From the NCBI GenBank assembly GCA_017470345.1, contig JAFUEP010000042.1:62001-126000 (forward strand): a stretch of DNA of 64,000 nt, read 5' to 3'. The notes beneath the pieces were generated by a model. That model made no database searches and was not told the origin of the DNA. It worked only from the letters and a program-made list of their open reading frames with translations. Positions 8,167 through 62,015 of the stretch are shown here, one piece after another (positions within the stretch are counted from its first letter, which is position 1; each line of letters begins with the position of its first letter). The position numbers and the translations under genes were made by a program. This stretch comes from Prevotella sp. Its GTDB lineage: Bacteria > Bacteroidota > Bacteroidia > Bacteroidales > Bacteroidaceae.

Positions 8167-10218
8167 TCAGTTCTTTTTCAGGACGACGGCCGACCGCGCA
8201 GGGATATAGAGCTTGAGCCACTCCTTGTGATCCTTGACGTAGAGGGGGTCGTAGTTGGTGAAATGCGTGACGGAGTCGTCAGCCAGTCCGTTGCCGCCGA
8301 ACTCCTTCGCGTCCGTGTTAAGCACCACCTCATAGCTGCCCGTGGGTACGAGGAAGCCATAGTCGGCGAAGGAGCGCGTGGGCGAGAAGTTGAAGACGAA
8401 GATGAGGTCGCCGCGCATGAAGGCGAGCACCTGGTCGCCGTCGTTGTGCCATATCTCGACGACGGGCTTGTTCTGGAAGTTGCGCACCGTCTTGACCACC
8501 TTGATCATCTCGCGGTCGAAGTCGCCCAGCCAGTGATAGCAGAGGTCGTGGTTGTCGACGAGGTTCCACTGGCGTCGTGCATACTTGTAGCTCCATCCGT
8601 TGCCCTCGCGCGGGAAGTCGATCCATTCGGGATGTCCGAACTCGTTGCCCATGAAGTTGAGGTAGCCGCCGTTGATGGCCGCCAGTGTGACGAGGCGTAT
8701 CATCTTGTGGAGGGCGATGCCGCGCTCAGCCACGCCGTTGACGTCCTTCTTGGCGAAGTGCCAGTACATGTCGGCGTCGATGAGCCGGAAGATGATGGTC
8801 TTGTCGCCGACGAGTGCCTGGTCGTGGCTCTCGCAGTACGAGATGGTCTTCTCGTCCGGACGGCGGTTCTTGACCTCCCAGAAGATGGAGCTGGGCTTCC
8901 AGTCCTCGTCCTTCAGCTCTTTGATCGTCTTGATCCAGTAGTCGGGGATGTTCATGGCCATGCGATAGTCGAATCCCATGCCGCCGTCCTCGAAGCTGGC
9001 CGCCAGTCCTGGCATGCCGCTGACCTCCTCGGCGATGGTGATCGCGTTGGGGTTCACCTCGTGGATGAGCAGGTTGGCCAGCGACAGGTAGCAGATGGCC
9101 TCGTCGTCCTCATGGCCGTTGAAGTAGTCGCCGTAGCCTCCGAAGGCCTCGCCCAGTCCGTGGCTATAGTAGAGCATGGAGGTGACTCCGTCGAATCGGA
9201 AGCCGTCGAAGTGGAACTCCTCGAGCCAGTATTTGCAGTTGGAGAGCAGGAAGTGCTTCACGCCGTCGTTGCCGTAGTCGAAGCAGAGCGAGTCCCATGC
9301 GGGATGCTCGTGGCGGTCGCCGCGGCAGAAGAACTGATAGGGGTCGCCGGCCAGGTTGCCCAGTCCCTCCACCTCGTTCTTCACGGCGTGGCTGTGGACG
9401 ATGTCCATGATCACGCTGATGCCCAGCCGGTGGGCCTCGTCGATGAGCGCCTTGAGTTCCTCGGGCGTGCCGAAGCGGCTGCTGGGGGCGAAGAACGACG
9501 AGACGTGATATCCGAACGACCCGTAGTAGGGATGCTCCTGGATGGCCATCACCTGGATGCAGTTGTAGCCGTCCTTGGCCACGCGCGGCAGCACGTTCTC
9601 GCGGAATTCGTTGTACGTACCCACCTTCTCGGCGTCCTGGCTCATGCCGACGTGGCACTCATAGATGAGCAGCGGCGACTTCTTCGGCTTGAAGCCCGCC
9701 TTCTTCCATACGTAGGGCACGGCGGGGTTCCACACCTGTGCGGAGAAGATCTTCGTCTCCTCGTCCTGCACCACGCGGCGGCACCAGGCGGGAATGCGCT
9801 CTCCCTCGCCGCCGTCCCAGTGGACGCGCATCTTGTAGAGCTGTCCGTGGCGCAGGTCCTTCTCGCGCAGCTTCAGCTCCCAGTTGCCCGTGCCCTCGAT
9901 GCGCTTGCAACGGTAGTGCTCGTCCTCCTGCCAGTTGTTGAAGTCGCCGACGAGATAGATGTCCGTGGCGTTGGGCGCCCACTCGCGGAAGACCCATCCG
10001 CGCGTCTGCTTGTGCAGTCCGTAGTAGAGGTGTCCTGTGGCGAAGTCGCTGAGCGACCTGCGTCCGTTGTTCGTCAGCTGGTTCAGCTTCCACAGCGCGT
10101 GGTCGTGGCGTCCGCGGATGGCCTCCTCGTAGGGTTCCAGCCACGAGTCGTTCTGCACGAGGCCTATGTGCTGCGGCTGCTTCTGTACCTGCTTCTGTTC
10201 CTGTTTCTTTGTTGCCAT
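8167..10218 (-). CDS. glgB: 1,4-alpha-glucan branching enzyme, eukaryote-type (GH13_8)
   Basis: A 683-residue branching enzyme that makes alpha-1,6 branches in glycogen. An N-terminal CBM48-like domain (FREWAPNATDIYLVGDFNNW, residues 77-96) precedes the GH13 barrel. Catalytic regions are visible: DIVHSHA (272-278), GFRFDG with the nucleophile Asp at 343, IAEE with the acid Glu at 397/398, and ESHDQ at 463-467. Length and motif spelling match the eukaryotic/Bacteroidetes branch rather than E. coli GlgB. The ATG is preceded by an array of 7-bp units that fills the whole gap to the upstream YhcH-family gene. Confidence 0.96.
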   Translation of the reverse strand: MATKKQEQKQVQKQPQHIGLVQNDSWLEPYEEAIRGRHDHALWKLNQLTNNGRRSLSDFATGHLYYGLHKQTRGWVFREWAPNATDIYLVGDFNNWQEDEHYRCKRIEGTGNWELKLREKDLRHGQLYKMRVHWDGGEGERIPAWCRRVVQDEETKIFSAQVWNPAVPYVWKKAGFKPKKSPLLIYECHVGMSQDAEKVGTYNEFRENVLPRVAKDGYNCIQVMAIQEHPYYGSFGYHVSSFFAPSSRFGTPEELKALIDEAHRLGISVIMDIVHSHAVKNEVEGLGNLAGDPYQFFCRGDRHEHPAWDSLCFDYGNDGVKHFLLSNCKYWLEEFHFDGFRFDGVTSMLYYSHGLGEAFGGYGDYFNGHEDDEAICYLSLANLLIHEVNPNAITIAEEVSGMPGLAASFEDGGMGFDYRMAMNIPDYWIKTIKELKDEDWKPSSIFWEVKNRRPDEKTISYCESHDQALVGDKTIIFRLIDADMYWHFAKKDVNGVAERGIALHKMIRLVTLAAINGGYLNFMGNEFGHPEWIDFPREGNGWSYKYARRQWNLVDNHDLCYHWLGDFDREMIKVVKTVRNFQNKPVVEIWHNDGDQVLAFMRGDLIFVFNFSPTRSFADYGFLVPTGSYEVVLNTDAKEFGGNGLADDSVTHFTNYDPLYVKDHKEWLKLYIPARSAVVLKKN

Positions 10219-10265
10219 AACTATAAACTATTCAATTCTTCACTCTTCACTCATAACTCTTCACC
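10217..10265 (-). repeat. Heptamer array between yhcH-like gene and glgB
   Basis: Read on the minus strand this is a run of 7-base units: GTGAAGA, GTTATGA, GTGAAGA, GTGAAGA, ATTGAAT, AGTTTAT, AGTTATG. The TGA stop of the upstream gene is part of the array and the glgB ATG falls in its last unit. Most units carry TGA. Confidence 0.75.
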
Positions 10266-10699
10266 TTGAAGATGGCTTTCTTGATCTCAGGCATGATGGA
10301 GATGCAGGGTGCATGTCCGTCCTGGGGGAAGAAGATGGCGAACATACCAGGCAGACAGTCGATGAAACTCTCGGCCAAAAGGCCAGGATACTTCGTGATG
10401 TCCTTCTCGTCGTTGTAGGGTGTCTCGGGCAGTCGGCAGAGCGGCGTGTAGCCGTAGGTCTCAGGCCCGTCCAGCGGGATCTGGATATCGATCATGCGGC
10501 GGTGCGTCTCGATGACGGCCTCGTCGGGCGTCCTGCCCTTGGCGGTGGTGATGTTGACGAAGAGGTCGGCGCCCTGTATGGGGTGCTTACCCTCTGGGAG
10601 CTCCTCGAGGCGGTTGTTGGCGATGAACTCCACGACCTGCTTGAAGAGCGGGTTGACGGCCTCGTACTTGGCGAGGTTCTCAATAGTGTCGATAATCAT
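10247..10699 (-). CDS. YhcH/YjgK/YiaL family protein (DUF386 cupin-like)
   Basis: A 150-residue single-domain protein matching the YhcH/YjgK/YiaL family, with the characteristic ETHRRMIDIQIPLDGPE segment and the metal/ligand-lining FFPQDGHAPCI region near the C-terminus. These small beta-barrel proteins are found with sialic-acid or sugar catabolic genes and EbgC-type beta-galactosidase subunits, but their reaction is mostly uncharacterised. Here it precedes glgB by 28 bases, so a sugar-related role is reasonable. The last codons and the stop lie inside a 7-bp repeat array. Confidence 0.9.
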   Translation of the reverse strand: MIIDTIENLAKYEAVNPLFKQVVEFIANNRLEELPEGKHPIQGADLFVNITTAKGRTPDEAVIETHRRMIDIQIPLDGPETYGYTPLCRLPETPYNDEKDITKYPGLLAESFIDCLPGMFAIFFPQDGHAPCISIMPEIKKAIFKVKSYE

Positions 10700-10738
10700 A
10701 ATGGCTTATATATTTTAGTTATTATTTTTATCTTTAGG

Positions 10739-10803
10739 AGTTTTTTGGGGGAGTTTAGGAGTTTAAAAGTTTTTGGGGGAGTTTAGGAGTATAGGAGTTT
10801 AGA
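10739..10803. repeat. Direct repeat with octamer-like units upstream of yhcH-like gene
   Basis: A motif of about 24 bases (AG, a T run, a G5 run, AGTTTAGGAGT) occurs at 10739-10762 and again, one T shorter, at 10768-10790. It is followed by 8-base units GTTTAGGA, GTATAGGA and GTTTAGAC. I see no gene in the 199-base gap 10700-10898. Confidence 0.7.
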
Positions 10804-10842
10804 CGATAGCCTTGCCGCTGATGCAGCGCTGAAGGTCACGAA

Positions 10843-10901
10843 GGATTTTAATTCTTAATTCTCAACTCTTAATCGCCAAAGGCGACAACTCTTAACTCTT
10901 A
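10843..10901 (-). repeat. Heptamer array around a GC hairpin after the MORN gene
   Basis: On the minus strand the units GAATTAA, GAGTTAA and GAGTTGT lead into the hairpin TCGCC-TTT-GGCGA, then ATTAAGA, GTTGAGA, ATTAAGA. The TAA stop of the MORN protein gene is inside the first unit. The hairpin might aid termination, but it has no T-tract directly after it. Confidence 0.65.
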
Positions 10902-12020
10902 ATTCTTCTTCCTGTGTCCGTTGACGTAGGTGCCCTGAGCCGTGACGTTGCCGTTGCGGTCCTTCTCCACGAAGTCGCCGTCGCGCCTGCCGTTGACATA
11001 GCAGCCCTCAAAGCGCTGGCCGTCCTTCGACTCCTCAATCGACTTGCCGTGGCGCTGGCCACCCTTGTAGGTAGCCTTGAATCGCGAACCATCAGCCATG
11101 TGTCCGATGCACTCGCCCTCAGGCTGTCCGTTCTTGAACTGCCCCTCGACGAGGTCGCCTTGCTTCGTGGTCAGCTTGCCGTGACCGTTGGGCAGGTCGT
11201 AGTGCCACTGTCCCGTATACGTGTTGCCGTTCTTCCAGACCAGTGTTCCCTGTCCGTGCTTGTCGCCGTTGAGGAACTGTCCGCTGTACTTGTCGCCGTT
11301 GGCATAGCGGAAGATGCCCGTGCCCGTGCGCATACCATTCTCATAGTCACCTTCGTAGATATCGCCGTTCTGGAAGCGGTAGATGCCCTTGCCGTGCATG
11401 CGGTCGGCCTGCCACTGTCCCACGTAGACGTCGCCGTTGGCATATCGGAATGTACCCTTGCCGTTGCGCTGGTCGTTCAGCCACTGCCCCTCGTAGGTCG
11501 AGCCGTCAGCCCAGTCGAAGAATCCCTGTCCGTTCTTCTTGTCCTGCTTCCACTCGCCGTTGTAGTAGGCTCCGCTGGCAAAGGTGTAGAGCCCCTTGCC
11601 CTCGCGCTTGTCCTCACGCCACATGCCGTTGTATACGTCGCCGTTGAAGTAGTACATCGTGCCCTTGCCCTGCTGGTAGTCACGATACCACAGCCCTACA
11701 TATTTATTATTGTTTTGGAAGTAATACGTACCCTGGCCGTGCTGCTGGTCGAGCAGCCACTGCCCCTCGTATCGCTCGCCGTCGCTGAACTGATAGACGC
11801 CGTAGCCCTCGCGGTGGCCCTTGACGTATTCTCCCTCGTAGGTGTTGCCGTTTTTCCATGTCGTCTTGCCCTTGCCGTGCGGCCGTCCTGAGGCCATCTC
11901 TCCGTTGTAGCTGCCGCCGTCCTTGGTGGTGCACGATCCGAGCGAGATCTTCTGTGCGCTGGCGATCAAAGGCACGGCCGTGATGAGTAATAATGATATG
12001 ATATGTCTGCTGATATTCAT
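10899..12020 (-). CDS. Exported MORN-repeat protein (14 repeats)
   Basis: A 373-residue protein with an N-terminal signal peptide (MNISRHIISLLLITAVPLIA, then SAQ) followed by 14 consecutive 23-residue MORN repeats of the form YxGxWxxGxxxGxGxxxxxxGxx, nearly filling the mature chain. The last repeats are degenerate (FKATYKGGQRHGKS, FEGCYVNGRRDG) and the tail is basic. MORN repeats form elongated beta-sheets that bind lipids or proteins; exported bacterial MORN proteins have no settled role. The ATG at 12020 was chosen over one 33 bases upstream because the latter lies over the likely promoter (12043-12050) and spoils the signal peptide. Confidence 0.9.
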   Translation of the reverse strand: MNISRHIISLLLITAVPLIASAQKISLGSCTTKDGGSYNGEMASGRPHGKGKTTWKNGNTYEGEYVKGHREGYGVYQFSDGERYEGQWLLDQQHGQGTYYFQNNNKYVGLWYRDYQQGKGTMYYFNGDVYNGMWREDKREGKGLYTFASGAYYNGEWKQDKKNGQGFFDWADGSTYEGQWLNDQRNGKGTFRYANGDVYVGQWQADRMHGKGIYRFQNGDIYEGDYENGMRTGTGIFRYANGDKYSGQFLNGDKHGQGTLVWKNGNTYTGQWHYDLPNGHGKLTTKQGDLVEGQFKNGQPEGECIGHMADGSRFKATYKGGQRHGKSIEESKDGQRFEGCYVNGRRDGDFVEKDRNGNVTAQGTYVNGHRKKN

Positions 12021-12042
12021 TGTTGCATAGCTTTTTGAAGCC

Positions 12043-12050
12043 CAAAAGTA
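12043..12050 (-). promoter_or_regulatory. -7 box (TACTTTTG) for the MORN gene
   Basis: Matches the Bacteroidetes TAnnTTTG -7 element on the minus strand, 22 bases before the chosen ATG. Confidence 0.6.
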
Positions 12051-12082
12051 CAAAAAAAATGTCGAGCAGGCAAAAAATTTAA

Positions 12083-12110
12083 GGAATTAGGAATAAGAAT
12101 TAAGAATTAT
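12083..12110 (+). repeat. Four 7-bp units in the kdsB promoter
   Basis: GGAATTA, GGAATAA, GAATTAA and GAATTAT in unbroken 7-base phase, ending directly before TTGTATCTTTG. They fill the place where the -33 element and spacer of the kdsB promoter would be. Confidence 0.7.
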
Positions 12111-12113
12111 TTG

Positions 12114-12121
12114 TATCTTTG
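12114..12121 (+). promoter_or_regulatory. -7 box (TATCTTTG) for kdsB
   Basis: A perfect TAnnTTTG element 22 bases before the kdsB ATG, implying a short leader. Confidence 0.7.
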
Positions 12122-12143
12122 CCGCCAAATCTGATCATCGACC

Positions 12144-12896
12144 ATGAAGTTTATCGGTATAATCCCCGCCCGCTATGCCTCCACGCGCTTTCCGGGCAAA
12201 CCCCTCGCCATGCTGGGCGGACGCACCGTCATCCAGCGAGTCTACGAACAGGTCAGCGGCGCCCTCGGCGAGGCCTACGTCGCCACCGACGACGAGCGCA
12301 TCCTCCGTGCCGTCCGACAGTTCGGCGGCCGCGCCGTCATGACGCGCGCCGACCACCGCAGCGGCACCGACCGCATCGAGGAGGCCGCCGAGCAGCTCCA
12401 GACCGACGCCGACGTCATCATCAACGTTCAGGGCGATGAGCCCTTCGTCCAGCGCTCGCAGCTCGAGACGGTGAAGTCGCTCTTTGCCGACCCCGAGGCA
12501 CAGATCTGCACACTGGGCAAGCCCTTCGAGTCGATGGAGGCCGTCATGAATCCCAACTCGCCCAAGATCGTCTGCGACGTGCGCGGCTACGCCCTCTACT
12601 TCAGCCGCTCCCCCATCCCCTACGTCCGCGGCCGCGAGCAGCAGGAGTGGCTCCAGGCCTTCCCCTACCTTAAGCACATCGGCCTCTACGCCTATCGCCG
12701 CGAGGTGCTGCGCGAGATCACACGTCTGCCGCAGAGCCCCCTCGAGCTCGCCGAGAGCCTCGAGCAACTGCGGTGGCTGCAGCACGGCTATCGCATCCGT
12801 GTGGGTCTCACCGACGTCGAGACCGTCGGCATAGACACGCCCGCCGACCTCAGCCGCGCCGAGGCCCTCCTCGGCGCGATGGAGGCGGAGCGTTAA
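12144..12896 (+). CDS. kdsB: 3-deoxy-manno-octulosonate cytidylyltransferase
   Basis: A 250-residue KdsB that makes CMP-Kdo from CTP and Kdo for the inner core of lipopolysaccharide. The N-terminal nucleotide-binding motif (IIPARYASTRFPGKPL), the substrate loop (DHRSGTDRI), the INVQGDEPF metal-binding segment and the C-terminal TVGIDTPADLSRAE are all present. Length is normal for the family. It has its own promoter, and the next gene also has its own, so it is probably monocistronic. lpxB at 25 kb belongs to the same outer-membrane pathway but is not linked. Confidence 0.97.
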   Translation: MKFIGIIPARYASTRFPGKPLAMLGGRTVIQRVYEQVSGALGEAYVATDDERILRAVRQFGGRAVMTRADHRSGTDRIEEAAEQLQTDADVIINVQGDEPFVQRSQLETVKSLFADPEAQICTLGKPFESMEAVMNPNSPKIVCDVRGYALYFSRSPIPYVRGREQQEWLQAFPYLKHIGLYAYRREVLREITRLPQSPLELAESLEQLRWLQHGYRIRVGLTDVETVGIDTPADLSRAEALLGAMEAER

Positions 12897-12948
12897 GGAG
12901 ACGCAGAAAAAAAGCGGGGAAAAAGGTAATTATATAAGAATAATTTTA

Positions 12949-12956
12949 TATCTTTG
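12949..12956 (+). promoter_or_regulatory. -7 box (TATCTTTG) for the acidic-tail protein
   Basis: Perfect TAnnTTTG element 23 bases before the ATG at 12980, in an AT-rich stretch. Confidence 0.7.
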
Positions 12957-12979
12957 CACCCACAAACATAATCACAGAA

Positions 12980-13795
12980 ATGAAAGAGACAAGCCAAGAC
13001 ACTGCAACCAAAGCCCTTACGCTGAAGACTCTGACGAAGAGCAGCGTCTGGGACGTACAAGAGAACGACATCTTCCGGATGTGGGAGGGTGCTGACAAGG
13101 ATGCCGAAGTGAAGGACAACGTGCGTCGCTATGTCGACATCATCCGTTCGGCATTCATGATCGAAGAGGTCAATTCGGATGCCCCTGTCGTCAAGGCCAA
13201 GTATGAGAAGCAAGGCTACAAGGTGGGCCAGGTGCGGATCGACGAGAACCAGAAGATCACGTGGGCCATCAAGAAGCGGCCTATCATGCGCGTAACTGAC
13301 CTCACCTACGAGAACATCCGCCACATCACGGCTACTAAACTCGTGGAGGTGCTCGACCGCAACTTCGGCGGCGGCTGGGACTCCCTGTCGCAGTCGATCA
13401 AGGACATCATCGAGTCCGGCTTCGACATCTCGACGACAACACTGCCCAAGGACCGTCTGCACAAGAAGGGAGGCATGTACGAGAAGAAGATCGACGACGG
13501 CTTCGAGGTGCTGGAAGTACCCAAGGGCACCTGGGTGGAGGCCATCTTCGCCAAGGCCAAGCCAGAGTCGGAGAAGCCCCGAATGAAGTTCAACAGCTAC
13601 GGCGACGACGAGGAGAACGACGATGAGGATGTCGAGATCGAGGACAACTACAACAAGCCTGACGAGGACGACATCGAACTCGACGGCCCCAACGACGACG
13701 AGATCACGGAGGACAACTACTCGACCATGATGGACCTCGGAGGCGACGACCCCGACGAGGAGGCTGAGAACATGGTCGACTACGTCGACGACTGA
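12980..13795 (+). CDS. Unknown protein with long acidic C-terminal tail
   Basis: A 271-residue soluble protein I do not recognise. Residues about 1-200 are a mixed-charge folded region with repeated basic/aromatic segments (for example YEKQGYKVGQVRIDENQKIT, RNFGGGWDSLSQSIKDI). Residues about 205-271 are overwhelmingly Asp and Glu (DDEENDDEDVEIEDNY and further blocks). No signal peptide or membrane segment is visible. The architecture recalls RNA polymerase- or ribosome-associated proteins with acidic tails, such as the Firmicutes delta subunit, but there is no sequence evidence for homology. It has its own strong-looking promoter and stands alone, which suggests good expression. Confidence 0.85.
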   Translation: MKETSQDTATKALTLKTLTKSSVWDVQENDIFRMWEGADKDAEVKDNVRRYVDIIRSAFMIEEVNSDAPVVKAKYEKQGYKVGQVRIDENQKITWAIKKRPIMRVTDLTYENIRHITATKLVEVLDRNFGGGWDSLSQSIKDIIESGFDISTTTLPKDRLHKKGGMYEKKIDDGFEVLEVPKGTWVEAIFAKAKPESEKPRMKFNSYGDDEENDDEDVEIEDNYNKPDEDDIELDGPNDDEITEDNYSTMMDLGGDDPDEEAENMVDYVDD

Positions 13796-13925
13796 CAAGG
13801 AAAACACGTCGGAAATGGAAGGAATATAATGAATAAATCTGAAACGACAAAGTCGACAAGTAGACATTTTGTTTTTTTCATATATATTTTTGACCCGACG
13901 ACTCGTCATTTCGGATTTCTATTGT

Positions 13926-13933
13926 TAACTTTG
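13926..13933 (+). promoter_or_regulatory. Possible distal -7 box (TAACTTTG) upstream of agmatine deiminase
   Basis: A TAnnTTTG match 88 bases before the ATG of the agmatine deiminase gene, in a 225-base gap that holds no other gene I can support. A second, closer match lies at 14008. Confidence 0.45.
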
Positions 13934-14007
13934 CCGTCAAAGACGGCGAACTTACTCTGTCTCGGCAAAAAAAGAATAAATTCTTTTGTTTTGCTCTCGA
14001 CTATTTG

Positions 14008-14015
14008 TAACTTTG
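14008..14015 (+). promoter_or_regulatory. -7 box (TAACTTTG) directly before the agmatine deiminase ATG
   Basis: A perfect TAnnTTTG element whose last G is only 6 bases from the ATG at 14021. With normal spacing, transcription would begin at or within a few bases of the start codon. Confidence 0.6.
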
Positions 14016-14020
14016 CACCC

Positions 14021-14998
14021 ATGAATGACAAGGACGACTACAGGCTGCCAGCAGAATGGGAGCCGCAGAGCGGCGTCCAGCTGACATGGCCGCACGCAGG
14101 GACCGACTGGGCGCCGATGCTCGACGAGATCATGGAGACGTATCGGACGATGGCCCGCGAGATAGGACGGCGGGAGCCGGTGCTGAACGTCGGACAGCCG
14201 AACGACGACACGTGGGCCCGCGACCACGGCTTCATCACGCTGACAGCTCCGGGCAAGCCTGCACGGCTGCTCGACTTCAGGTTCAACGGATGGGGCGAGA
14301 AATTCCCCTCTGAGCTCGACAACGCCATCAACCGCCGCCTCTTCGACGAGGGACGGCTGGAGGGCATCTATGAGAATCACCTGGACTTCGTCCTGGAGGG
14401 AGGCTCCATCGAGAGCGACGGCCGGGGGACGATTTTCACCACGACCGCCTGCCTGATGGCTCCTCATCGCAACCAGCCGCTGACACAGGGTGAGATAGAG
14501 GAGCGGCTGAAGAGATGGCTCAGGGCGGAGCGCATCGTCTGGATTGACCACGGCAGCCTCGTGGGCGACGACACCGACGGGCATATCGACACGCTGGTGC
14601 GCGTCGGGCCCGACGACACCCTGCTGTATGTAGGTTGCGACGATCCGGCGGATGAGCAATACGAGGAGCTACGACTGATGGAGCAACAACTTGTCGGGCT
14701 GCTCACCACCGACGGACGGCCCTACAGGCTGGTGCGGCTGCCGATGCCACGCCCCATCCGCGATGAGCAGGGGCAGCGGCTGCCGGCTACGTATGCAAAT
14801 TTCCTCGTCGTCAACGGCGCCGTTCTCTGCCCCACCTACGCCCAACCCGATCTCGACGCTGAGGCCATGCGACGCATCGGCGAGTCATTTCCCCGTCGTG
14901 ACGTCGTCGGCATCGACTGCCGCAGCATCATCCGCCAGCACGGCTCGCTCCACTGCTGCACCATGCAGTTTCCTGCGGGCGTCGTCGGAAAGAGATAA
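14021..14998 (+). CDS. aguA: Agmatine deiminase
   Basis: A 325-residue member of the peptidyl-arginine-deiminase-like family; converts agmatine to N-carbamoylputrescine and ammonia. Visible motifs are the N-terminal WPHAGTDW, the active-site segment NDDTWARDHGF, the conserved LEGGSIESDGRGT, DGHIDTLVR, and the C-terminal catalytic Cys in GSLHCCTMQ. The next gene encodes the following enzyme of the pathway, which makes the assignment firm over other deiminases of the family. The ATG at 14021 sits 6 bases after a promoter -7 box. The stop codon lies at the beginning of an AT-rich repeat array. Confidence 0.95.
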   Translation: MNDKDDYRLPAEWEPQSGVQLTWPHAGTDWAPMLDEIMETYRTMAREIGRREPVLNVGQPNDDTWARDHGFITLTAPGKPARLLDFRFNGWGEKFPSELDNAINRRLFDEGRLEGIYENHLDFVLEGGSIESDGRGTIFTTTACLMAPHRNQPLTQGEIEERLKRWLRAERIVWIDHGSLVGDDTDGHIDTLVRVGPDDTLLYVGCDDPADEQYEELRLMEQQLVGLLTTDGRPYRLVRLPMPRPIRDEQGQRLPATYANFLVVNGAVLCPTYAQPDLDAEAMRRIGESFPRRDVVGIDCRSIIRQHGSLHCCTMQFPAGVVGKR

Positions 14999-15037
14999 TA
15001 GATAATAGATAAGAGATAATAGATAAGAGATAATAAA
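14996..15037 (+). repeat. Heptamer array between aguA and aguB
   Basis: Alternating 7-base units GATAATA and GATAAGA; the 14-base pair of units occurs twice exactly at 15008-15035. The aguA stop codon TAA is in the first unit and the array ends at the TTG start of the next gene. Every unit carries TAA. Confidence 0.8.
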
Positions 15038-15925
15038 TTGAAAAAAGAACTGAAAATAGGATTCCTGCAGCAGCACAACGTCGCTGACACGATGAACAAC
15101 ATCGGGCGGCTCAGCGACGGCATCCGCGACCTCGCCGGACGCGGCGCACAGCTCATCGTCCTGCAGGAGCTGCACAATGCGCTCTACTTCTGTCAGGTGG
15201 AGGCGGTCGACAATTTCAATCTGGCTGAGCCCATACCGGGACCCTCCACCGAACACTACGGCCGGTTGGCCAAGGAACTGGGCGTGGTGCTCGTCACGTC
15301 GCTCTTCGAACGGCGTGCCCCGGGACTCTGTCACAATACGGCGGTGGTGTTCGAACGGGACGGGCAGATAGCCGGGCGCTATCGTAAGATGCACATCCCT
15401 GACGACCCAGCCTACTACGAGAAGTTCTATTTCACGCCGGGCGACCTCGGCTTCCGGCCCATCGAGACGAGCGTCGGCCGACTGGGCGTGCTCGTCTGCT
15501 GGGACCAGTGGTATCCTGAGGCTGCCAGGCTGATGGCCCTGGCGGGAGCCGAGCTGCTCATCTACCCGACAGCCATCGGATATGAGAGCAGCGATGCCGA
15601 CGACGAGCAGCAGCGGCAGCGCCGTGCCTGGCAGACGGTGATGCGCGGACATGCCGTGGCCAACGGGCTGCCGGTCGTGGCCGTCAACCGTGTGGGCAAG
15701 GAGGCCGACCCGTCGGGCCAGACGGGCGGCATACGGTTCTGGGGCACGTCGTTCGTCTGCGGGCCTCAGGGCGAGATTCTCTATGAAGCATCCGACGACG
15801 AGGAGGAGAGTGTTGTCGTGGCCCTCGACATGGGGCGCTCTGAGCAGGTGAGGCGCTGGTGGCCCTTCCTGCGCGACCGCCGCATCGACAGCTACGGAGA
15901 GCTGACGCGACGATACATTGATTAA
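15038..15925 (+). CDS. aguB: N-carbamoylputrescine amidase (nitrilase superfamily)
   Basis: A 295-residue nitrilase-fold enzyme that hydrolyses N-carbamoylputrescine to putrescine, CO2 and ammonia. The catalytic triad positions are clear: Glu in LQELHNALYF, Lys in YRKMHIPDD, and Cys in GVLVCWDQWYPEAAR, the last being typical of the plant/bacterial AguB group. The start is TTG at 15038, immediately after the repeat array; no ATG upstream preserves the conserved N-terminus (LKIGFLQQH). Together with agmatine deiminase it forms a two-step putrescine route. Confidence 0.95.
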   Translation: MKKELKIGFLQQHNVADTMNNIGRLSDGIRDLAGRGAQLIVLQELHNALYFCQVEAVDNFNLAEPIPGPSTEHYGRLAKELGVVLVTSLFERRAPGLCHNTAVVFERDGQIAGRYRKMHIPDDPAYYEKFYFTPGDLGFRPIETSVGRLGVLVCWDQWYPEAARLMALAGAELLIYPTAIGYESSDADDEQQRQRRAWQTVMRGHAVANGLPVVAVNRVGKEADPSGQTGGIRFWGTSFVCGPQGEILYEASDDEEESVVVALDMGRSEQVRRWWPFLRDRRIDSYGELTRRYID

Positions 15926-26172: not shown

Positions 26173-26236
26173 TGTCACTTTGCCCTTTGCCACATTATTT
26201 AGGATTTCCCTCATGTGGCAAAGTGACAAAGTGACA
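26173..26236. repeat. Inverted repeat with 8-bp units between convergent lpxB and cdsA
   Basis: The left arm (26173-26195) and right arm (26213-26236) are near-perfect reverse complements of 23 and 24 bases. The right arm reads as AGTGACAA units in 8-base phase. Loop of 17 bases. There is no adjacent T-run, but the position fits a bidirectional transcription end. Confidence 0.75.
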
Positions 26237-26248
26237 AGTGCGTTATAA

Positions 26249-40795: not shown

Positions 40796-40926
40796 CGCAG
40801 TATCGCAGTATCACAATACCACAATACCATTTGTGAATTAGAACGTTGAAAATATGGTGTATAATATTTTCGGTCTCTATGATTTCAGCAAATGGTATTG
40901 TAGTATTGTGGTATTGTGATACTGCG
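40796..40926. repeat. 38-bp inverted repeat built of 8-bp units
   Basis: The left arm (40796-40833) is CGCAGTAT twice, CACAATAC twice, then CATTTG. The right arm (40889-40926) is its reverse complement at 34 of 38 positions, and three of the mismatches would be G-T pairs. The loop is 55 bases. The octamer phase is unbroken in both arms. Confidence 0.85.
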
Positions 40927-41157
40927 CTGTGTCTTTTCCTAAATACGGTTCTTTGCATGCAAAGCGAACAAGTTCGAGCAGCCTTCTTTTATATATTGTT
41001 TTCTGGCATTTGCCTATCCATACTGAAAAGGTTGACTCGTCCTCATGGGATGTCTTGTTGTCTTGATGTCTTGATGTCCTTGATGCCTATTGTATTGTTG
41101 CCGGAAACAAAGCGGCATATCGGGAGTGACAAAGCACAGTTGTGTGATGTACACGAC

Positions 41158-48165: not shown

Positions 48166-48188
48166 GTCTCTTCTTTTTTCTTAATAAT

Positions 48189-48284
48189 GTTATGGCGGTA
48201 TTCCGTAATATCGTTATATCGTAATTCCGTTATTTCGTTATATCGTTATTTCGTTATTCCGTTATTTCGTCATACCGCCATAAC
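48189..48284. repeat. Tandem 8-bp array bounded by 13-bp inverted repeats
   Basis: GTTATGGCGGTAT (48189-48201) and its exact reverse complement (48272-48284) bound 70 bases composed of octamers in phase: TCCGTAAT, ATCGTTAT, ATCGTAAT, TCCGTTAT, TTCGTTAT, ATCGTTAT, TTCGTTAT, TCCGTTAT, TTCGTC. It fills most of the gap between the M13 peptidase gene and metA. Confidence 0.88.
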
Positions 48285-48297
48285 ACCAGTCATGAAT

Positions 48298-52323: not shown

Positions 52324-52327
52324 GCGG

Positions 52328-54497: not shown

Positions 54498-54530
54498 TGT
54501 TTTGTTTAGAATAATGGTTGTTTCAGACCG

Positions 54531-54538: not shown

Positions 54539-54623
54539 CGACTTTTTCCTGAAACAATCGAATAACTGACGAGAAAATTGCTCCCAAAATCAGGCACGGA
54601 GCCGTTGCAGGCACGAAGAAGGA

Positions 54624-54689
54624 CCGTTTTGTCCTCAGCAAAGTGCCGTTGTGTCCTCAGCACAGCACCGCTGTGTCGTCAGCACAGCA
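54624..54689. repeat. 22-bp tandem repeat, three copies
   Basis: Units start at 54624, 54646 and 54668, each beginning CCGTT or CCGCT and sharing TGTCCTCAGCA or TGTCGTCAGCA. Copies 2 and 3 differ at two positions, copy 1 at a few more. A fourth unit begins (CCGCT) and diverges. Confidence 0.8.
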
Positions 54690-54807
54690 CCGCTTCTTCA
54701 GAAGGGAAGGAGCGCTTGCCCAAGCGCCAAGAAACAGAACAATGCGACAGAAGTCGTCCGACGTCTGCCGCATCGCCATTGTTTGTCTGCCCAAGTGAAG
54801 CGACTCC

Positions 54808-56997
54808 TCACTTGGCCGTCATGGAAGTGACGCTGGAGGTGCCTACGTGCGAGGAGCCGAGGTAGAGGCCGTGCCACTCCGTGGTGGCGTCCGTAGGTGC
54901 CTTGGTGGAGTACTTCACGTTGTAGGAAGAATTCTTCGTCATCCCCTTGGCCGTGAAGAGCGACAGCGAGCTGCTGCACGAGGCGGGGAAGCTGTAGGTC
55001 ATGAGGTTGTTGCCTGAGGCATCAGCCAGCGTGTAGTAGCGGCCCGACTGATAGCTGATACTACTGGTCACAAAGGCATAGCCCTGCGATGCGTTCGAGA
55101 TGGTATAGCCACTGCTGGAGCCGCCCCATCCGCCGCCTCCGCCGCCACCCTGCGAGGCGCCCGCGCTGACGGCATAGCCTGAGCCCGTGATCTGGATGTA
55201 AGAGTTGTTGTCGCAGTCGATGCCCTCCTCTGGCGCGCCTTTCGTGGTGAAGGCGAAAATGGCTCCGTCGCCAATGGTGACAGCCCCTGTCGTGGCCGCA
55301 TTGGAGTCAATGGCGTCGTTGCCGTTGGAATAACAGACAGTGGCTCCGCCATCGAAGATGAGCTTGCCAGCCGAGTTGATGCAGTCGTCGTAGCATTGGA
55401 AGTAGTGCAGTCCGCCCTTGACGGTGACGCTGGTCTTTGACTCCAGTCCCTCTGCTCCGTCAGTCTTGGTCGACACCTCAGTGGTGCCGCCATAGAGCAT
55501 CACGGCGCAGATGGCCTTGATAGCCTTGGCCGACGAGGAGCTGTAGGCCGAGCCCGTCGTGCTGACAGTCAGCGTGGGCCCTGAGCCGTCGCTGAGGCCC
55601 TGGGTGTAGGAGCCCTTAATGTTGCTCCACGAGGAGCCGCCGCCCATGCCGCCACCCATGCCGCCACCTGGGCGTCCGCCACCCCAGCCGCCGCCAGAGC
55701 TGCCGCTGGATGACTGCGTGCCCGATCCGGCTGAGATGCCCTTGCCTGCGTTGCCGCTCATGGCGATATTGATGATGCCGCCGTTGAGGGCGATATTGAG
55801 GCCCTTGAGGCCCTTGGCACTCTTGACGTCAGACGAGATGGTCGTTGGCGTGGCCGCGTTGGTGATGGTGAGCGAGCCGCTGTTGGTCTCGATGTCCCAT
55901 GCCTTGACGCCGCGTCCCGCCGTGCCCTTGATGGTCATAGTGATAGAGCCGCCGTTCTGAACGAACTTGCCGCAACTGACCCCCGAGACGTAGGAGGGGT
56001 CCGAGGCGTCGCTCGTATCGACCGCCCCGCTGGCGTTGAGCTCGAGCGTGCCACCGCTGACGACGAGCGTCGAGTCGCTCTTGAGGCACTTGGTGCCTGC
56101 CGCTGTCGTCGTGATGGTCAGCGAGCCGCCCTGGATGTAAATGTTGCCAGAGTCCTCGTCCTCATGGTCAGCCGTCTCACCCGTGTTCGACGTCCCGTCG
56201 AGGTCGCACTGGATGCCGTCGTCGCCCACCCCGCTGATGGTCAGCGTGCCACTCTCCATGAGGAAGTATTCATCGCACGAGAGACCGTCCTTCACTGCCT
56301 TGACGACGTTGAGCGTCAGGTTCTTCATCTGCATATACTCCGCGCTCTTGACGGCGTGGGCCGTCAGGCCGCTGACGTTGAGCGTGCCCTTGCCCTTGAG
56401 CTCCAGATGCCCCTTGCAGTAGAGGGCCGCCTTCTGGTCGCCATTAGCCGCATCGACGAGCGTATTCACCGTGCCGCTCTTGGCACTCAGGTCGATGCGC
56501 TTGCCGTCCATGATGCAGACGGCCGCCCCGCTGTAGACGGGCGTCTGGTTGGTCAGCGTCAGCCCTGCAAGTTCAACGGTGGCCTTGAAGGAGCCTGCCA
56601 TGTAGAACTCGCCGTCGCTGCTCGCGCCGCTCAGGGCGTAAGTGATCTCCTCGCTGACGTCGTCGCTTTGGGTGATTGAGACGTGCGCGCCGCTCTGCTC
56701 GATGGTGAGATACTGGGCGATGTTGCCTGCCACGCGTATCAAGGCCGTCGAGCCGTCGTATTCGACCTCGACACGGCTGTCAGTCACCTCCGTGTTGTCG
56801 ACAAACATGCGATTCACATCGGCGAGCGTGAACGCTTTATTGATAATAGTGACAGTCTGCCCGTCCTGATATGTCATCTCGCCAGCCTGTGCAGCCGGGA
56901 ACTGATAGACGACCTGTCCCACTTCGACATTCAATGTCTGGGCTGCCATAGTCATCCCGACCACGGCCGCCACGATTGTTATTACGATCCTCTTCAT
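54808..56997 (-). CDS. Exported Cthe_2159-type carbohydrate-binding protein
   Basis: A 729-residue exported protein. A signal peptide (MKRIVITIVAAVVGMTMAAQ) leads into an N-terminal region of about 140 residues without a dockerin, then a beta-helix of the Cthe_2159 family: KAALYCKGHLELKGKGTLNV, DGIQCDLDG, GAEGLESKTSVTVKGG, NDAIDSNAATTG and a Gly-rich loop (GGGWGGGRPGGGMGGG). The order of motifs parallels the 1020-residue protein at 41301-44363. It probably binds plant polysaccharide at the cell surface. A second ATG at 57003 would add two residues. It has its own promoter box. Confidence 0.88.
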   Translation of the reverse strand: MKRIVITIVAAVVGMTMAAQTLNVEVGQVVYQFPAAQAGEMTYQDGQTVTIINKAFTLADVNRMFVDNTEVTDSRVEVEYDGSTALIRVAGNIAQYLTIEQSGAHVSITQSDDVSEEITYALSGASSDGEFYMAGSFKATVELAGLTLTNQTPVYSGAAVCIMDGKRIDLSAKSGTVNTLVDAANGDQKAALYCKGHLELKGKGTLNVSGLTAHAVKSAEYMQMKNLTLNVVKAVKDGLSCDEYFLMESGTLTISGVGDDGIQCDLDGTSNTGETADHEDEDSGNIYIQGGSLTITTTAAGTKCLKSDSTLVVSGGTLELNASGAVDTSDASDPSYVSGVSCGKFVQNGGSITMTIKGTAGRGVKAWDIETNSGSLTITNAATPTTISSDVKSAKGLKGLNIALNGGIINIAMSGNAGKGISAGSGTQSSSGSSGGGWGGGRPGGGMGGGMGGGSSWSNIKGSYTQGLSDGSGPTLTVSTTGSAYSSSSAKAIKAICAVMLYGGTTEVSTKTDGAEGLESKTSVTVKGGLHYFQCYDDCINSAGKLIFDGGATVCYSNGNDAIDSNAATTGAVTIGDGAIFAFTTKGAPEEGIDCDNNSYIQITGSGYAVSAGASQGGGGGGGWGGSSSGYTISNASQGYAFVTSSISYQSGRYYTLADASGNNLMTYSFPASCSSSLSLFTAKGMTKNSSYNVKYSTKAPTDATTEWHGLYLGSSHVGTSSVTSMTAK

Positions 56998-57023
56998 AAG
57001 CATTCTTACAATAAAATTTGCCA

Positions 57024-57031
57024 CAAAGGTA
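57024..57031 (-). promoter_or_regulatory. -7 box (TACCTTTG) for the second Cthe_2159 gene
   Basis: Perfect TAnnTTTG element on the minus strand, 26 bases before the ATG. Confidence 0.65.
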
Positions 57032-57081
57032 GGCAAAAGACCTCGTAGCAACAAATTCTTTCAACGAAGGGGCAGATTCGT

Positions 57082-57744
57082 TCAGTAAATCAGCACACTG
57101 CCGCCATCGCTGGCAGCATACTTCCTGCAAAGCTCCTGAATGTAGCGGGCGTTGGCTTCCACCCGCACGCGGTTGCCGTCGTAGCCATTGACAAGCACCA
57201 CGAGATGGCGGGTCGAGAGTGTCATCTTCGTGCGCTCGTTGTCGCTCGTGGGTGTGCCGACGCCCCCCATGGCATCGCGATAGACAGGCAAGCCGGCAAT
57301 GTTGAGCATTCCGCGCCCGATGCCCTCATAGGGCTCACTCTCGCGCCCGATGCCAAGGGTCAGCGTGTCGCCCACAAACTTTGAGGCGTCGAAGCCTCCG
57401 ATGCTGTAGCCATAGGCAATTGAGGCCAGGTTGACGAGGTCGACGAGCGTGTCGATCTGATAGAGTTCCTTGCCCTGAAGCATGCGGCGGATCAGGGCTT
57501 CCGAGGCGGGGCGATAGCGCGAGGGATCCTTGCCGCACTTCCTATAGACGGCACGCGTGGCCGCAATCGAAGGCAGGTCCTTCAGCGACTCTGTGGTCAG
57601 CTCGCTGCGGAACTGCTCCTCCAGCCTGTGGATCTCGTCCCAAAGCTCAGGGCAGTAGCTGCTGTTCTCCACCTGCGCGTCGACACAGGCCCCTACGAAG
57701 TTGGGGCAGACGCTCTCTATCTCTTGTGAAACAATGATTTGCAT
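57082..57744 (-). CDS. B3/B4 tRNA-binding domain protein
   Basis: A 220-residue protein consisting of the B3/B4 domain found in the phenylalanyl-tRNA synthetase beta subunit (COG3382-like). Landmarks are SIAATRAVYRKCGKDPSRYRP and LVDLVNLASIAYGYSIGGFD, then a DAMGGVGTPTSDNERTKMT segment in its core GTPTSDNERT. In PheT this fold edits mischarged tRNA; stand-alone copies may act as trans-editing or amino-acid-binding proteins. It follows ligA by 13 bases, which is probably only operon packing. Confidence 0.9.
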   Translation of the reverse strand: MQIIVSQEIESVCPNFVGACVDAQVENSSYCPELWDEIHRLEEQFRSELTTESLKDLPSIAATRAVYRKCGKDPSRYRPASEALIRRMLQGKELYQIDTLVDLVNLASIAYGYSIGGFDASKFVGDTLTLGIGRESEPYEGIGRGMLNIAGLPVYRDAMGGVGTPTSDNERTKMTLSTRHLVVLVNGYDGNRVRVEANARYIQELCRKYAASDGGSVLIY

Positions 57745-57757
57745 AATATAGTCCGTA

Positions 57758-59884
<2,127 letters not shown>

Positions 59885-59905
59885 CTAAAGAAAGAAGAAA
59901 CGACA

Positions 59906-60064
59906 ATGAAGAAGTATGTTTGCGACGTATGCGGCTATGAGTATGATCCCGAAGTAGGCGACCCCGAAAACGGCATCGCCCCCGGCACCAGTTTTGAAGA
60001 CCTGCCCGACGACTGGGTGTGCCCCCTCTGCGGCGTCGGCAAGGATCAGTTCAGCGAAGCCTGA
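59906..60064 (+). CDS. Rubredoxin
   Basis: A 52-residue iron protein, found by reading the gap by eye. It begins [18 protein letters not shown] and has both CxxCG iron-binding pairs (CDVCGY near residue 6 and CPLCGVGKD near residue 39), with the WVCPLCG core intact. One Fe is held by the four Cys. It acts as a small electron carrier, in anaerobes often to rubrerythrin or superoxide reductase for oxygen defence. It has its own promoter; the next gene starts 14 bases later. Confidence 0.97.
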
Positions 60065-60078
60065 CCCCCGCCCCACCA

Positions 60079-60543
60079 TTGAAACGCGACAACCCACTGG
60101 CGCTGCTGCGCCTCGTCTGGCGCGCCCGCAAGCCGTCAGCCCTGAGCGACATGCCTGCCGTACGCAACGACTTCTGGCTGCGTCGGGGCTATGAGGCGAT
60201 GACCTTCTTCGGCTTCATCGTCACGGCCACGCAGCAGGAGGCCGACCACATCAACGGCCGCATGACGCCGCTGAAGCGCCACGAGATGATCCATCTGCGG
60301 CAAGCGCAGTCGACGGGTAATTCCTGGCTGCGCTTCTACTTTTTATATTTATGGCACTACCTACGGGCCCTGCCACAAAACCGTCGTATGAAGAATGCGG
60401 CCTATCGGCTCAACCCCTTCGAGATAGAGGCCTACGCCCACATGTATGAGCCCGACTATCTCGACCGTCCCGCCGACGAGTGGCGACGGTGGGCCCGGAT
60501 GAAGCCCCGCCAGAGACTGAAACTCTTTAAGACATGCGAATAG
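60079..60543 (+). CDS. Unknown protein with HExxH-like motif
   Basis: A 154-residue protein of a small Bacteroidetes group that I cannot name. Its most notable feature is [12 protein letters not shown], an HExxH-type segment, followed by an aromatic stretch ([16 protein letters not shown]) that may be a membrane-associated helix, and [17 protein letters not shown], where the Glu could be a third metal ligand. This suggests a shortened membrane metalloprotease-like domain related to M56 or BlaR1 types. The start is taken as TTG at 60079, since no ATG lies between the rubredoxin stop and the conserved region; an ATG at 60149 is possible. It overlaps trmD by 10 bases. Confidence 0.7.
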
Positions 60544-61208
60544 ACATCATCACCGTACTGCCCGAGATGCTCGAGGGCTTCGTCCACGAGTCCATACTGG
60601 CCCGCGCCGAGAAGAAGGGTCTGGCCGAGATCCGGCTGCATAACCTGCGCGACTACACACTCGACAAGTGGCGCCGCGTCGACGACTATCCCTACGGCGG
60701 CTCAGCCGGCATGGTCATGCAGTGCGAGCCCATCGACCGCTGCATCACGGCCCTCAAGCAGGAGCGAACCTACGACGAGGTCATCTTCACCTCCCCCGAC
60801 GGCGAGCGCTTCAATCAGCACATCGCCAACGAGCTCTCGCTCATGGGCAACATCATCATCCTCTGCGGACACTACAAGGGCATCGACCAGCGTATACGCG
60901 ACCATCTGATCACCCGCGAGATCTCTATCGGCGACTTCGTCCTCACGGGTGGAGAGCTCGTCGCTGCCATGATTGCCGATGCCGTCGTGCGCGTCGTCCC
61001 CGGCGTCATCGGCGACGAGCAGAGCGCCCTCTCCGACTGTTTCCAGGACGACCTCCTCGCCGCCCCCATCTACACCCGGCCTGCCGACTACAAGGGATGG
61101 CGCGTACCCGACATCCTCCTCAGCGGCAACGAGGCCAAAATCCGCAACTGGGAGCTCGAGCAGGCCATGGAGCGCACCCGCCGGCTTCGGCCCGACCTGC
61201 TGGACTGA
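60534..61208 (+). CDS. trmD: tRNA (guanine37-N1)-methyltransferase
   Basis: A 224-residue SPOUT methyltransferase that makes m1G37 beside the anticodon. The N-terminal [34 protein letters not shown], the trefoil-knot SAM site ([12 protein letters not shown], then [12 protein letters not shown]) and the C-terminal [20 protein letters not shown] are present. Length is typical. It overlaps the upstream unknown gene by 10 bases and is followed by a hairpin. Confidence 0.97.
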
Positions 61209-61233
61209 TCCTCTTTTATCCCTATCAAGACAA

Positions 61234-61270
61234 AAACATGGGGCGCAGTCGCTGCGGCCCATGTTTCTTT
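61234..61270 (+). terminator. Probable terminator after trmD
   Basis: A long hairpin: AAACATGGG pairs with CCCATGTTT, and after one G-G mismatch CGCAG pairs with CTGCG over a TCG loop. The exit is only CTTTC, so the T-run is weak. Confidence 0.6.
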
Positions 61271-61315
61271 CCCGGGGTATTATAAAAAGACTATTTTAAA
61301 TATTAAGCTAATAAA

Positions 61316-61978
61316 CTATCTGATGATCCGGCCCTGCGACTTCGGCATTGCTGCGCGAGCCGACCTCGCGGGGCTCGGTCTGAGGTCGTCGACGTCGACG
61401 GGCTTCGTCAGCATGCCCGTGCCGTCCATCCAGCGGCGCGACTCGGCGCTGGCTTCATAGATCTGGATACGCTTCACGGTGAGCGGCATCGGCGGATAGA
61501 CCTGCACGAAGCGGATGGTCTCCGTTGACTGTCCATAGACCCAGTAGCACTGGTCCATGGGGAAGTGCTCCACCTCCTGCAGCAGGTAGCGGTCGCCCGT
61601 GTCGGCGTCGATGATGGCCGAGCCGGTGGTGAAACGCCAGAAGAACCAGTCCTGATGCTTAGGCACGGTGTAGTCGAGGCATAGGTAGGTGGCTTCACGG
61701 CAGCGATAGAGGGTCATGCGGCTGGTCCAACCATTGGCATCATTATGCTCGATATGACGTCCGGTCTGACCCTCGGGCGCCGTCTGTATGTGCGAGAAGG
61801 CGGCAAACGAGCGGTCGTCGTGCAGGTTGTAGTTAGGCCATGCGGGGCGCTCCAGCACCGGTTGTTTGTTCTCAGGGCGCTCGTCGTAGGCTGAGCGGAT
61901 GAAGCCCTGCGTGGCGTGGCAGCTGGAGAGCATGGCCACCGCCACCGACATCAGAAGATGCAAATATCTGTTCCTCAT
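61316..61978 (-). CDS. Lipoprotein resembling the C-terminal domain of the upstream M56 peptidase
   Basis: A 220-residue lipoprotein (LLMSVAVAMLSSCHATQG). The mature chain looks like one beta-rich domain. The segment IIDADTGDRYLLQEVEHFP, then FVQVYPPMPLTVKRIQIYEA, lines up by eye with KQTNDKYMLRSLDD and YQVCLVFPPLGKKVDEVSM in the last part of the M56 protein, and both proteins end in GRII. I infer a shared domain but cannot measure it. It starts about 30 bases after the M56 stop, across a heptamer array, so the two are probably co-transcribed. Nearby ATGs at 61981 and 61990 are alternatives. Confidence 0.8.
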   Translation of the reverse strand: MRNRYLHLLMSVAVAMLSSCHATQGFIRSAYDERPENKQPVLERPAWPNYNLHDDRSFAAFSHIQTAPEGQTGRHIEHNDANGWTSRMTLYRCREATYLCLDYTVPKHQDWFFWRFTTGSAIIDADTGDRYLLQEVEHFPMDQCYWVYGQSTETIRFVQVYPPMPLTVKRIQIYEASAESRRWMDGTGMLTKPVDVDDLRPSPARSARAAMPKSQGRIIR

Positions 61979-61982
61979 CATA

Positions 61983-62015
61983 ATTATCATTTTTCAATTT
62001 TCACTTTTCAATTTG
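61983..62015 (-). repeat. Heptamer array between the M56 gene and the lipoprotein
   Basis: On the minus strand: AATTGAA, AAGTGAA, AATTGAA, AAATGAT, in 7-base phase. The TGA stop of the M56 gene is inside the first unit. Confidence 0.75.

Follow-up and report, generated by a model that had tools for sequence, protein, structure and literature searches.

Heptamer arrays at gene ends in a Prevotella genome as the probable ends of small hairpin elements resembling intervening sequences

Short arrays of 7- or 8-bp units lie between the genes of a 64,000-nt stretch of Prevotella sp. DNA (GenBank assembly GCA_017470345.1, contig JAFUEP010000042.1, positions 62,001 to 126,000; here called the window), and at least four of them overlie the stop codon of the gene upstream. 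What are these arrays, and why do they stand where they do? A sequence-only reading of the window proposed that the arrays may act as three-frame translation stops. All four arrays that it placed on gene ends are present, and the names of the genes concerned are supported by Pfam (YhcH/DUF386, MORN, PAD_porph for the aguA-type gene, and Peptidase_M56). The first array, of the GTGAAGA type (10217..10264, minus strand), begins in the last YhcH codons, crosses the stop at 10247-10249, and extends as far as the ATG of the gene that follows, an extent judged by eye. The MORN array, described earlier by the unit GAGTTAA, consists in fact of two heptamer tracts of GAATTAA/GAGTTAA (10848..10907, minus strand) around a mini-hairpin, ATCGCC-AA-AGGCGAC (10872-10886), and covers the stop at 10899-10901. 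The third array, AGATAAT/AGATAAG (14990..15035, plus strand), lies over the aguA stop (14996-14998) and occupies the whole gap to aguB, and the fourth, AATTGAA/AAGTGAA (61982..62014, minus strand), lies over the M56 stop (62008-62010) and reaches into the start of the next gene. We conclude that such arrays are probably the ends of small selfish hairpin elements, either whole or left over. The elements are best read as relatives of the intervening sequences (IVS) of 23S rRNA that live outside rRNA and have derivatives resembling miniature inverted-repeat transposable elements (MITEs).

The window is part (C41:62001-126000) of a source genome, G000, of 2.67 Mb that is 61.55% complete; Marseilla massiliensis, at 81%, is the nearest named organism among the matches listed for a window protein. 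For the array statistics we used 1,151,872 bp of this genome, joined into 20 stretches, in which 692 genes were called with a simple codon model of our own (start codons are approximate) and 513 gaps with 171,117 bp were left. A scan of these gaps at a score of at least 11 found 69 arrays of period 7, compared with a mean of 0.0 in 10 dinucleotide shuffles. The other periods gave 19 arrays versus 0.2 in the shuffles (period 14), 21 versus 0.1 (period 8), 13 versus 0.2 (period 9), 6 versus 0.0 (period 10), 2 versus 0.3 (period 11), 1 versus 0.1 (period 6), 0 versus 0.1 (period 5), and 1 versus 0.3 (period 4). In relatives (80 loci, 1,405,518 bp, coding DNA included, score of at least 14) there were 31 arrays of period 7, 12 of period 8, 7 of period 9, and 2 of period 6. 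The arrays are real and genome-wide, and the strong excess of periods 7 and 8, with period 6 nearly absent, bears out the sequence-only reading. Its suggestion that the period was chosen as a non-multiple of 3 fails. Something orders the arrays, and it is explained neither by the modulo-3 property nor by the content of stops, because period 9 is commoner than periods 10, 11, 5, and 4.

Inside two inverted-array pairs of 450 to 480 bp, the open reading frames (ORFs) encode IVP/S23 proteins. They match TIGR02436 at 1e-29 and 5e-29, and the solved structure closest to an element ORF is 2rld (1.2e-35). PF05635 has 10 matches in G000, all 10 over the cut-off, and none in 14 named control genomes. 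Inverted arms were measured by an inverted-repeat (IR) score, with a main threshold of 14 and a looser one of 12. All nine assessable IVP genes of G000 lie between inverted heptamer arms, eight of them at IR 14 or more; L236 was excluded, as its 79 bases of flank before the contig end do not allow its arms to be judged. Together with 70 loci from relatives, of which 56 reach IR 14, this makes 64 of 79 IVP loci (71 at the looser threshold), compared with 1 of 149 control genes of 80 to 233 amino acids (5 at the looser threshold) and 1 of 240 random segments (2 at the looser threshold). The 64 loci at or above IR 14 outline a whole element with a median length of 480 bp (range, 407 to 709). Its arms have period 7 in 30 cases, 8 in 20, 9 in 4, 10 in 4, 12 in 3, and no period in 3, so that periods 7 and 8 lead here as they do in the genome-wide arrays, and arm sequences vary between the elements of G000. 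A codirectional ORF stops within 60 nt of the start of the 5' arm in 57 of the 64 elements, compared with 12 of 104 points placed at random in these loci, and in 41 of these 57 the stop falls within -20 to +12 of the arm start; the others have an open antisense frame upstream (four elements) or neither (three elements). PF05635 is matched at an E value of 0.001 or less in 90 of 118 Bacteroidota genomes. Array density and IVP count go together in the expected direction: four genomes with 6 to 15 IVP matches hold 24 arrays of period 7/14 in 400 kb, unevenly spread (14 in G008 and 6 in G059), and four genomes with 0 or 1 match hold 4 in 400 kb, all in G003.

Two further ideas about these elements were set aside. 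Folded as RNA, one element has its arms as the closing stem (z score of -4.7), and this suggested a stem of 6 bp plus a mismatch as the reason for the 7-base unit. Arm mismatches are not concentrated in one phase, with 59 of 148 compared to 57.8 at random in 27 elements of a set of 61 at IR 14 or more. A reverse transcriptase acting in trans is not required, as RVT_1, matched in 8 of 15 genomes searched, is not matched in the IVP-rich genomes G000 (incomplete), G008, G028, and G004.

The arms and inner stems of the IVP elements recur in hairpins that have no ORF, and these fall into families. E1 has arms AGTGAAR or AGTGTAG and an inner stem TTTGCTRCCGC/GCGGYAGCAAA; E2 has arms AGAAGTG; E3 has AGATGAA with ATATGATTA; E5 has GAAGGTT with GTCGGCTTCGCCGA; E6 has AGAGTTA with GTCGCC..GGCGA; further families have 8- and 9-base units. 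Among the IVP elements of G000, L239 and L244 carry the E1 arms and stems, with the E1 core at both ends, and L238 carries those of E3, L240 those of E5, and L245 those of E6. The E1 core, TTTGCT[AGT]CCGC, occurs 33 times in the sample, 31 times within 12 bp of a period-7 stretch; positions 20 bp or less from such a stretch make up 1.3% of the sample. The cores of E3 (8 of 9) and E5 (5 of 5) are likewise near period-7 stretches and scrambled controls are not (0 of 6); E2 (4 of 7) and E6 (2 of 6) are less clear. The E1 palindromes are 99 to 111 bp long with a 41-bp stem. In ten of them, eight of which lie in genes, 91.5% of the stem cells are paired, compared with 41 to 51% when the arms are slid, and 17 pairs have changed on both sides versus 11.0 in shuffles (0 of 500). 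A model of E1 gives at least 60 strand-hits in G000, in at least about 30 places, and matches in at least 21 of 60 genomes, its own included; these are lower bounds, and the E values are rough. These copies are short, non-coding, bounded by terminal inverted repeats, and dispersed in many places, as MITEs are, and their longer relatives carry IVP.

These data bear on neutral replication slippage with a preferred 7-base step, a proposal ascribed to Mrazek in PMC4679880. The same paper reports heptanucleotides as the commonest class in most genomes, and the need to keep the reading frame would bar arrays of this kind from most positions in genes, both of which suit slippage. A product of slippage would be a tandem array with no other conserved parts and no dispersal, a description that the solo arrays, taken by themselves, would fit. 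The units recur across loci, however, and far-off sites have inner stems in common; the arms are co-varying inverted pairs, and IVP genes flank them. Moreover, variant words are common to different arrays beyond what shuffles give, with 68 versus 39.8 pairs for words of 3 (15 of 5,000 shuffles) and, more weakly, 10 versus 4.9 pairs for words of 4 (248 of 5,000 shuffles). Pure slippage fails to explain the shared inner stems, the inverted arms, and the IVP genes, and we consider it improbable as the origin of the arrays, although it may still lengthen arms.

Copies of the hairpins also lie inside genes. When coding DNA of the G000 sample was included in the scan (score of at least 13), 43 of 100 period-7 arrays had more than half of their length within called genes, in some cases at the 3' end, and the other 57 counted as outside. 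An inverted partner no further than 600 bp away exists for 24 of the 47 period-7 blocks in genes. The typical genic pair spans about 90 to 110 bp, with a purine arm, a loop, and a pyrimidine arm, and the frame of the gene is open throughout; nine of ten purine arrays in gene interiors have stops in both unused frames. The best solved homologue of TopA matches residues 2 to 377 and again those from 415 on, which leaves an insert without counterpart. A long insert at this site is absent from 28 of 30 TopA sequences (own included), where the loop is shorter; G000 and G023 are the two exceptions, and several of the others have up to about a dozen extra residues there. PurL has 40 residues where its solved homologue has 11, and RNase R has 17 residues without counterpart in its solved homologue. 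By Pfam, further in-frame palindromes lie in M24 peptidase, MenC-like, GH88, periplasmic-binding/AraC regulator, and GH106 genes. Two more in-frame copies were found in G006, one of them in what we take to be a CarB-like gene, and one in G013. Among E1-type loci, 5 of the 21 scored are in frame, two of them in G000; 3 of 24 were dropped for odd lengths. As an observation on its own, the G023 TopA (L207) has a different insert with heptamer features in the same loop, which may be a repeated target.

The upstream stop is abutted by 36 of the 59 period-7/14 arrays of codirectional gaps, compared with 23.3 expected from uniform placement. On the coding strand, 35 of these 36 are rich in purines; three-frame stops occur in 30 of them in sense and in 3 in antisense. 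Thus, the enrichment behind stops and the sense-strand bias of stop-bearing units that the sequence-only reading predicted both hold next to stops. Away from stops, the bias vanishes or reverses: 9 of 23 arrays are purine-rich, and three-frame stops occur in 5 of 23 in sense and in 14 of 23 in antisense. Arrays of other periods abut upstream stops in 3 of 18 (period 8) and 0 of 9 (period 9) codirectional cases.

One explanation for arrays behind stops is selection for catching read-through or frameshifted ribosomes, and the 30 to 3 ratio of sense to antisense three-frame stops is what it would predict. It is nevertheless very improbable. Arrays of periods 9 and 10 exist, and one element type has arms of periods 7, 8, 9, 10, and 12. 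Pyrimidine arms mostly have no stops, other arrays lie in frame in gene interiors, and relatives have no array at an orthologous junction. It would also leave the inverted arms and the IVP genes unexplained. We reject a three-frame stop function as the organising principle on the grounds of period, strand, position, and coding insertions. The three-frame stops are best seen as a by-product, arising because the 7-base unit contains TGA or TAA, where the 5' arm of an element provides the stop of the gene that it follows; an incidental fail-safe effect is possible. Stop capture alone, in which insertion is random and a sense arm then gives the stop, was rejected as well. It predicts antisense arms that read through gene ends, and the listed antisense arrays inside genes are all further than 160 nt from any gene end, which leaves a real preference for the sense orientation on the stop side. 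Alternatively, the arrays could be translational leaders, AT- and purine-rich tracts without structure that ease ribosome initiation at the next gene. Such a role was proposed for TAACTGA repeats, and Bacteroidetes are reported to lack Shine-Dalgarno use (PMC3155529). Consistent with this, 18 of the 59 codirectional arrays take up the whole gap as far as the next start, and TAACTGA repeats are reported to lie mostly just upstream of starts (PMC4679880). On the other hand, starts are abutted no more often than expected (15 versus 19.5) and stops more often, and other arrays lie in convergent gaps or gene interiors, which makes a leader function quite unlikely.

Presence of the elements is lineage specific. 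In a flank comparison based on the 61-element set, 25 of 84 flanking proteins matched the G000 sample, and three clean comparisons kept the neighbour: the elements of G028 and G029, which share one junction (presumably between fumarate reductase subunits), and that of G004 at another (presumably between electron-transfer flavoprotein subunits). At both junctions the element is absent from G000, where 5 and 6 nt separate the stop from the next ATG. In G028, the TAG that stops the upstream gene arises where gene and arm join, and the 3' arm finishes on the ATG that follows. The other flank matches are less clear, with neighbours 169 to 346 nt apart or not conserved. The aguA-aguB junction of relatives, examined by eye, gives the same picture for arrays without an ORF: Marseilla (L069) has no array, the genes overlap in L070, L072, L075, and L078 have other heptamer-like units, and L110 has the opposite orientation. 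These comparisons bear on the possibility that IVP is a host RNA-binding regulator with the arms as its binding sites and that nothing moves. IVP genes and arms do co-occur, and the relatives of IVP in solved structures (2rld, 2gsc) show five chains per entry. We regard this as unlikely, since the sites are lineage specific with empty orthologues and ORF-less copies lie in unrelated genes; one protein with one site is also unlikely because arm sequences differ between elements within one genome.

How might such elements work? A complete element of about 480 bp consists of a purine-rich tandem array (the 5' arm), often a conserved inner stem, the IVP/S23 gene, the complementary inner stem, and the inverse array (the 3' arm). 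In a transcript the two arms would pair to form a long stem that has the IVP gene in its loop, on the plan of the IVS within 23S rRNA. The elements sit between operon genes, directly after the upstream gene and in its sense, and probably move or are copied from site to site. IVP, a four-helix-bundle protein of TIGR02436, may be the chaperone or the mobility factor of the hairpin. The Bacteroidales elements would then be IVS relatives living at operon junctions, with an IVP that serves the hairpin. The solo sense arrays at stops would be 5' arms kept after loss of the ORF and the 3' arm, possibly because the stop codon of the upstream gene now lies in them. In the window, the arrays at 10217..10264, whose unit type is that of the E1 arms AGTGAAR, and at 61982..62014 may be read as such solo 5' arms. 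The unit of the aguA array is identical to the arms of the IVP element G000:C63:1371-1825 (L237), which are AGATAAT, and its sequence matches 20 other places in G000. The inner motif type of the MORN array matches the 5' arm of the IVP element G000:C24:118639 (L245).

Several results weigh against interpreting the arrays as ends of mobile hairpin elements. One IVP element of G000 is weak (L242, IR 11), 14 of the 70 loci from relatives fall below IR 14 and 7 below 12, and among 30 top-scoring IVP loci across Bacteroidota only 11 reach IR 14 and 15 reach 12. The IVP genes examined were mainly high-scoring ones and no random draw. The IVP-rich genomes G028 and G067 have only 2 period-7/14 arrays each, whereas G003, without a PF05635 match, has 4 in 100 kb, and G010, also without a match, has at least 8 E1-type strand-hits; hairpin elements may outlive the protein gene. 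Target-site duplication was not apparent by eye in the flanks of 13 elements, with relatives too diverged for a firm comparison, and no transposition event or within-species polymorphism was seen in the genomes compared, all of which are of other species. Of 145 period-7 blocks, 61 are intergenic without a partner within 600 bp, and their tie to the elements is one of shared units and position. Finally, for the surplus of solo sense arms at stops there is only the putative account of retained 5' arms.

The elements can be compared with known systems, beginning with the IVS. PMC4990558 describes the IVS of one gammaproteobacterium as 428 nt long, with 2 to 3 tandem heptamers upstream of the S23 gene and excision by RNase III; it calls the function of IVP/S23 unknown and reports that an IVP relative forms a pentamer. 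Both the IVS of 23S rRNA and the present elements enclose a gene of one family (PF05635/TIGR02436) between ends that can form a stem; here the inverted ends close such a stem on the ORF at the 64 of 79 loci given above, and at 11 of 30 in distant Bacteroidota. The whole elements have the ORF of an IVS, and the ORF-less copies and solo arrays do not. Unlike the IVS, the present elements lie in protein operons and protein genes, their arms are tandem arrays at both ends, and they occur in several copies per genome with ORF-less derivatives. With 57 of 64 elements behind a codirectional ORF, their location is not the 23S rRNA gene of an IVS, although no search was made of the rRNA genes themselves. 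Rickettsia palindromic elements (RPE), of about 150 bp, are inserted in frame in unrelated genes according to the review PMC10969869. The present copies likewise place palindromes in frame within conserved genes that are unrelated to one another (TopA, PurL, and RNase R as judged against homologues), but here the arms are heptamer arrays, related full-length IVP elements lie in the same genome, and the phylum is another; the likeness is one of description and not of compared sequences.

TAACTGA heptamer repeats were described in Beggiatoaceae, Cyanobacteria, and some Bacteroidetes (MacGregor 2015, PMC4679880). In that paper, 13 of 14 sets overlapping an upstream ORF end are forward, and 10 sets inside ORFs are in reverse. 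They are thus heptamer direct repeats with three-frame stops in forward orientation and the same asymmetry as the present arrays. They differ in having a single unit that does not vary and is almost always in direct orientation, with one inverted repeat in the genome described, and no IVP gene is reported there. The BrickBuilt MITE of Porphyromonas gingivalis (PMC4596501) is another Bacteroidales case of tandem repeats inside a short inverted-repeat element. Its unit is 23 bp and it is reported to be always intergenic, and it is nearer to the window element at 48188-48285 described below than to the heptamer arms. Among open-licence papers, judged by title and the start of the abstract, we found none that ties heptamer arrays to IVP genes outside rRNA.

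A broader proposal would be that these are widespread selfish hairpin elements of Bacteroidota with S23/IVP as their own mobility or packaging protein. They would land at operon junctions at the upstream stop and in its sense, leaving the neighbours undisturbed; their array units would change freely while the arms stay complementary, and their ORF-less copies would be translated hairpins in essential enzymes. We hold this tentatively, at somewhat less than an even chance. If true, the heptamer repeats long noted in bacteria would have a common origin and a very common protein family would have a function. The reading of the arrays as element ends joins the heptanucleotide excess, the abundance of 'four helix bundle' genes, and the odd in-frame enzyme inserts into one testable thing. 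It offers a role for IVP/S23 and would be a new case of selfish DNA adding peptides to working proteins. For annotation there is a warning, as inserts with peptides like SEKSEV..SHLSPLTSHF or SEEF..NSSLFTLHSSL are probably element-derived.

The window holds further tracts. An octamer tract, GGAGTTTA (10735..10802), resembles the arm type AGGAGTTA around some IVP genes of relatives (L262, L269, L277, and L284), and a heptamer tract, AAGAATT (12079..12109, plus strand), lies in a divergent gap. The octamer tract GTGACAAA (26215..26237, plus strand) is part of a hairpin, recognized by eye, in a convergent gap. An ORF-less palindrome at 40796..40930 has octamer arms CACAATAC ... GTATTGTG, and the nearby octamer tract GATGTCTT (41049..41085) has an inverted pair of the same unit at G000:C15:200169-200530. 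Just upstream of the M56 gene start lies a heptamer tract that is pyrimidine-rich on the coding strand, i.e., of the 3'-arm type (63975..63995, minus strand). At 48188..48285, an octamer array that on the minus strand is of the ACGAAATA type stands between the two halves of a perfect 14-bp inverted repeat, TGTTATGGCGGTAT/ATACCGCCATAACA, at 48188-48201 and 48272-48285 (by eye). This element differs from the heptamer arms and resembles a minisatellite-in-MITE plan.

Some observations around aguA and elsewhere in G000 may also be recorded. The aguB gene seemingly starts at a TTG (window 15038) directly behind the array, and many relatives have an ATG near a conserved AAAATAGG. A promoter-like stretch of about 90 bp upstream of aguA (window about 13926-14021), ending in TATTTGTAACTTTGCAC, has 6 further copies in G000 at 77 to 94% identity, as if promoters were dispersed too. 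Nine-base arms of the CACGAATTA type (G000:C15:181852-182348, C34:17061-17135, C16:86910-86985, and C20:11220-11298) define a hairpin family of their own that has no ORF, and an inner GCGCAGC is present in several of its members. Palindromes built on CACGNCGTGACGNCATG and resembling repetitive extragenic palindromic (REP) sequences lie in several G000 gaps, for example at C15:60821-60892, C16:114925-115002, C20:34325-34402, and C34:68509-68582.

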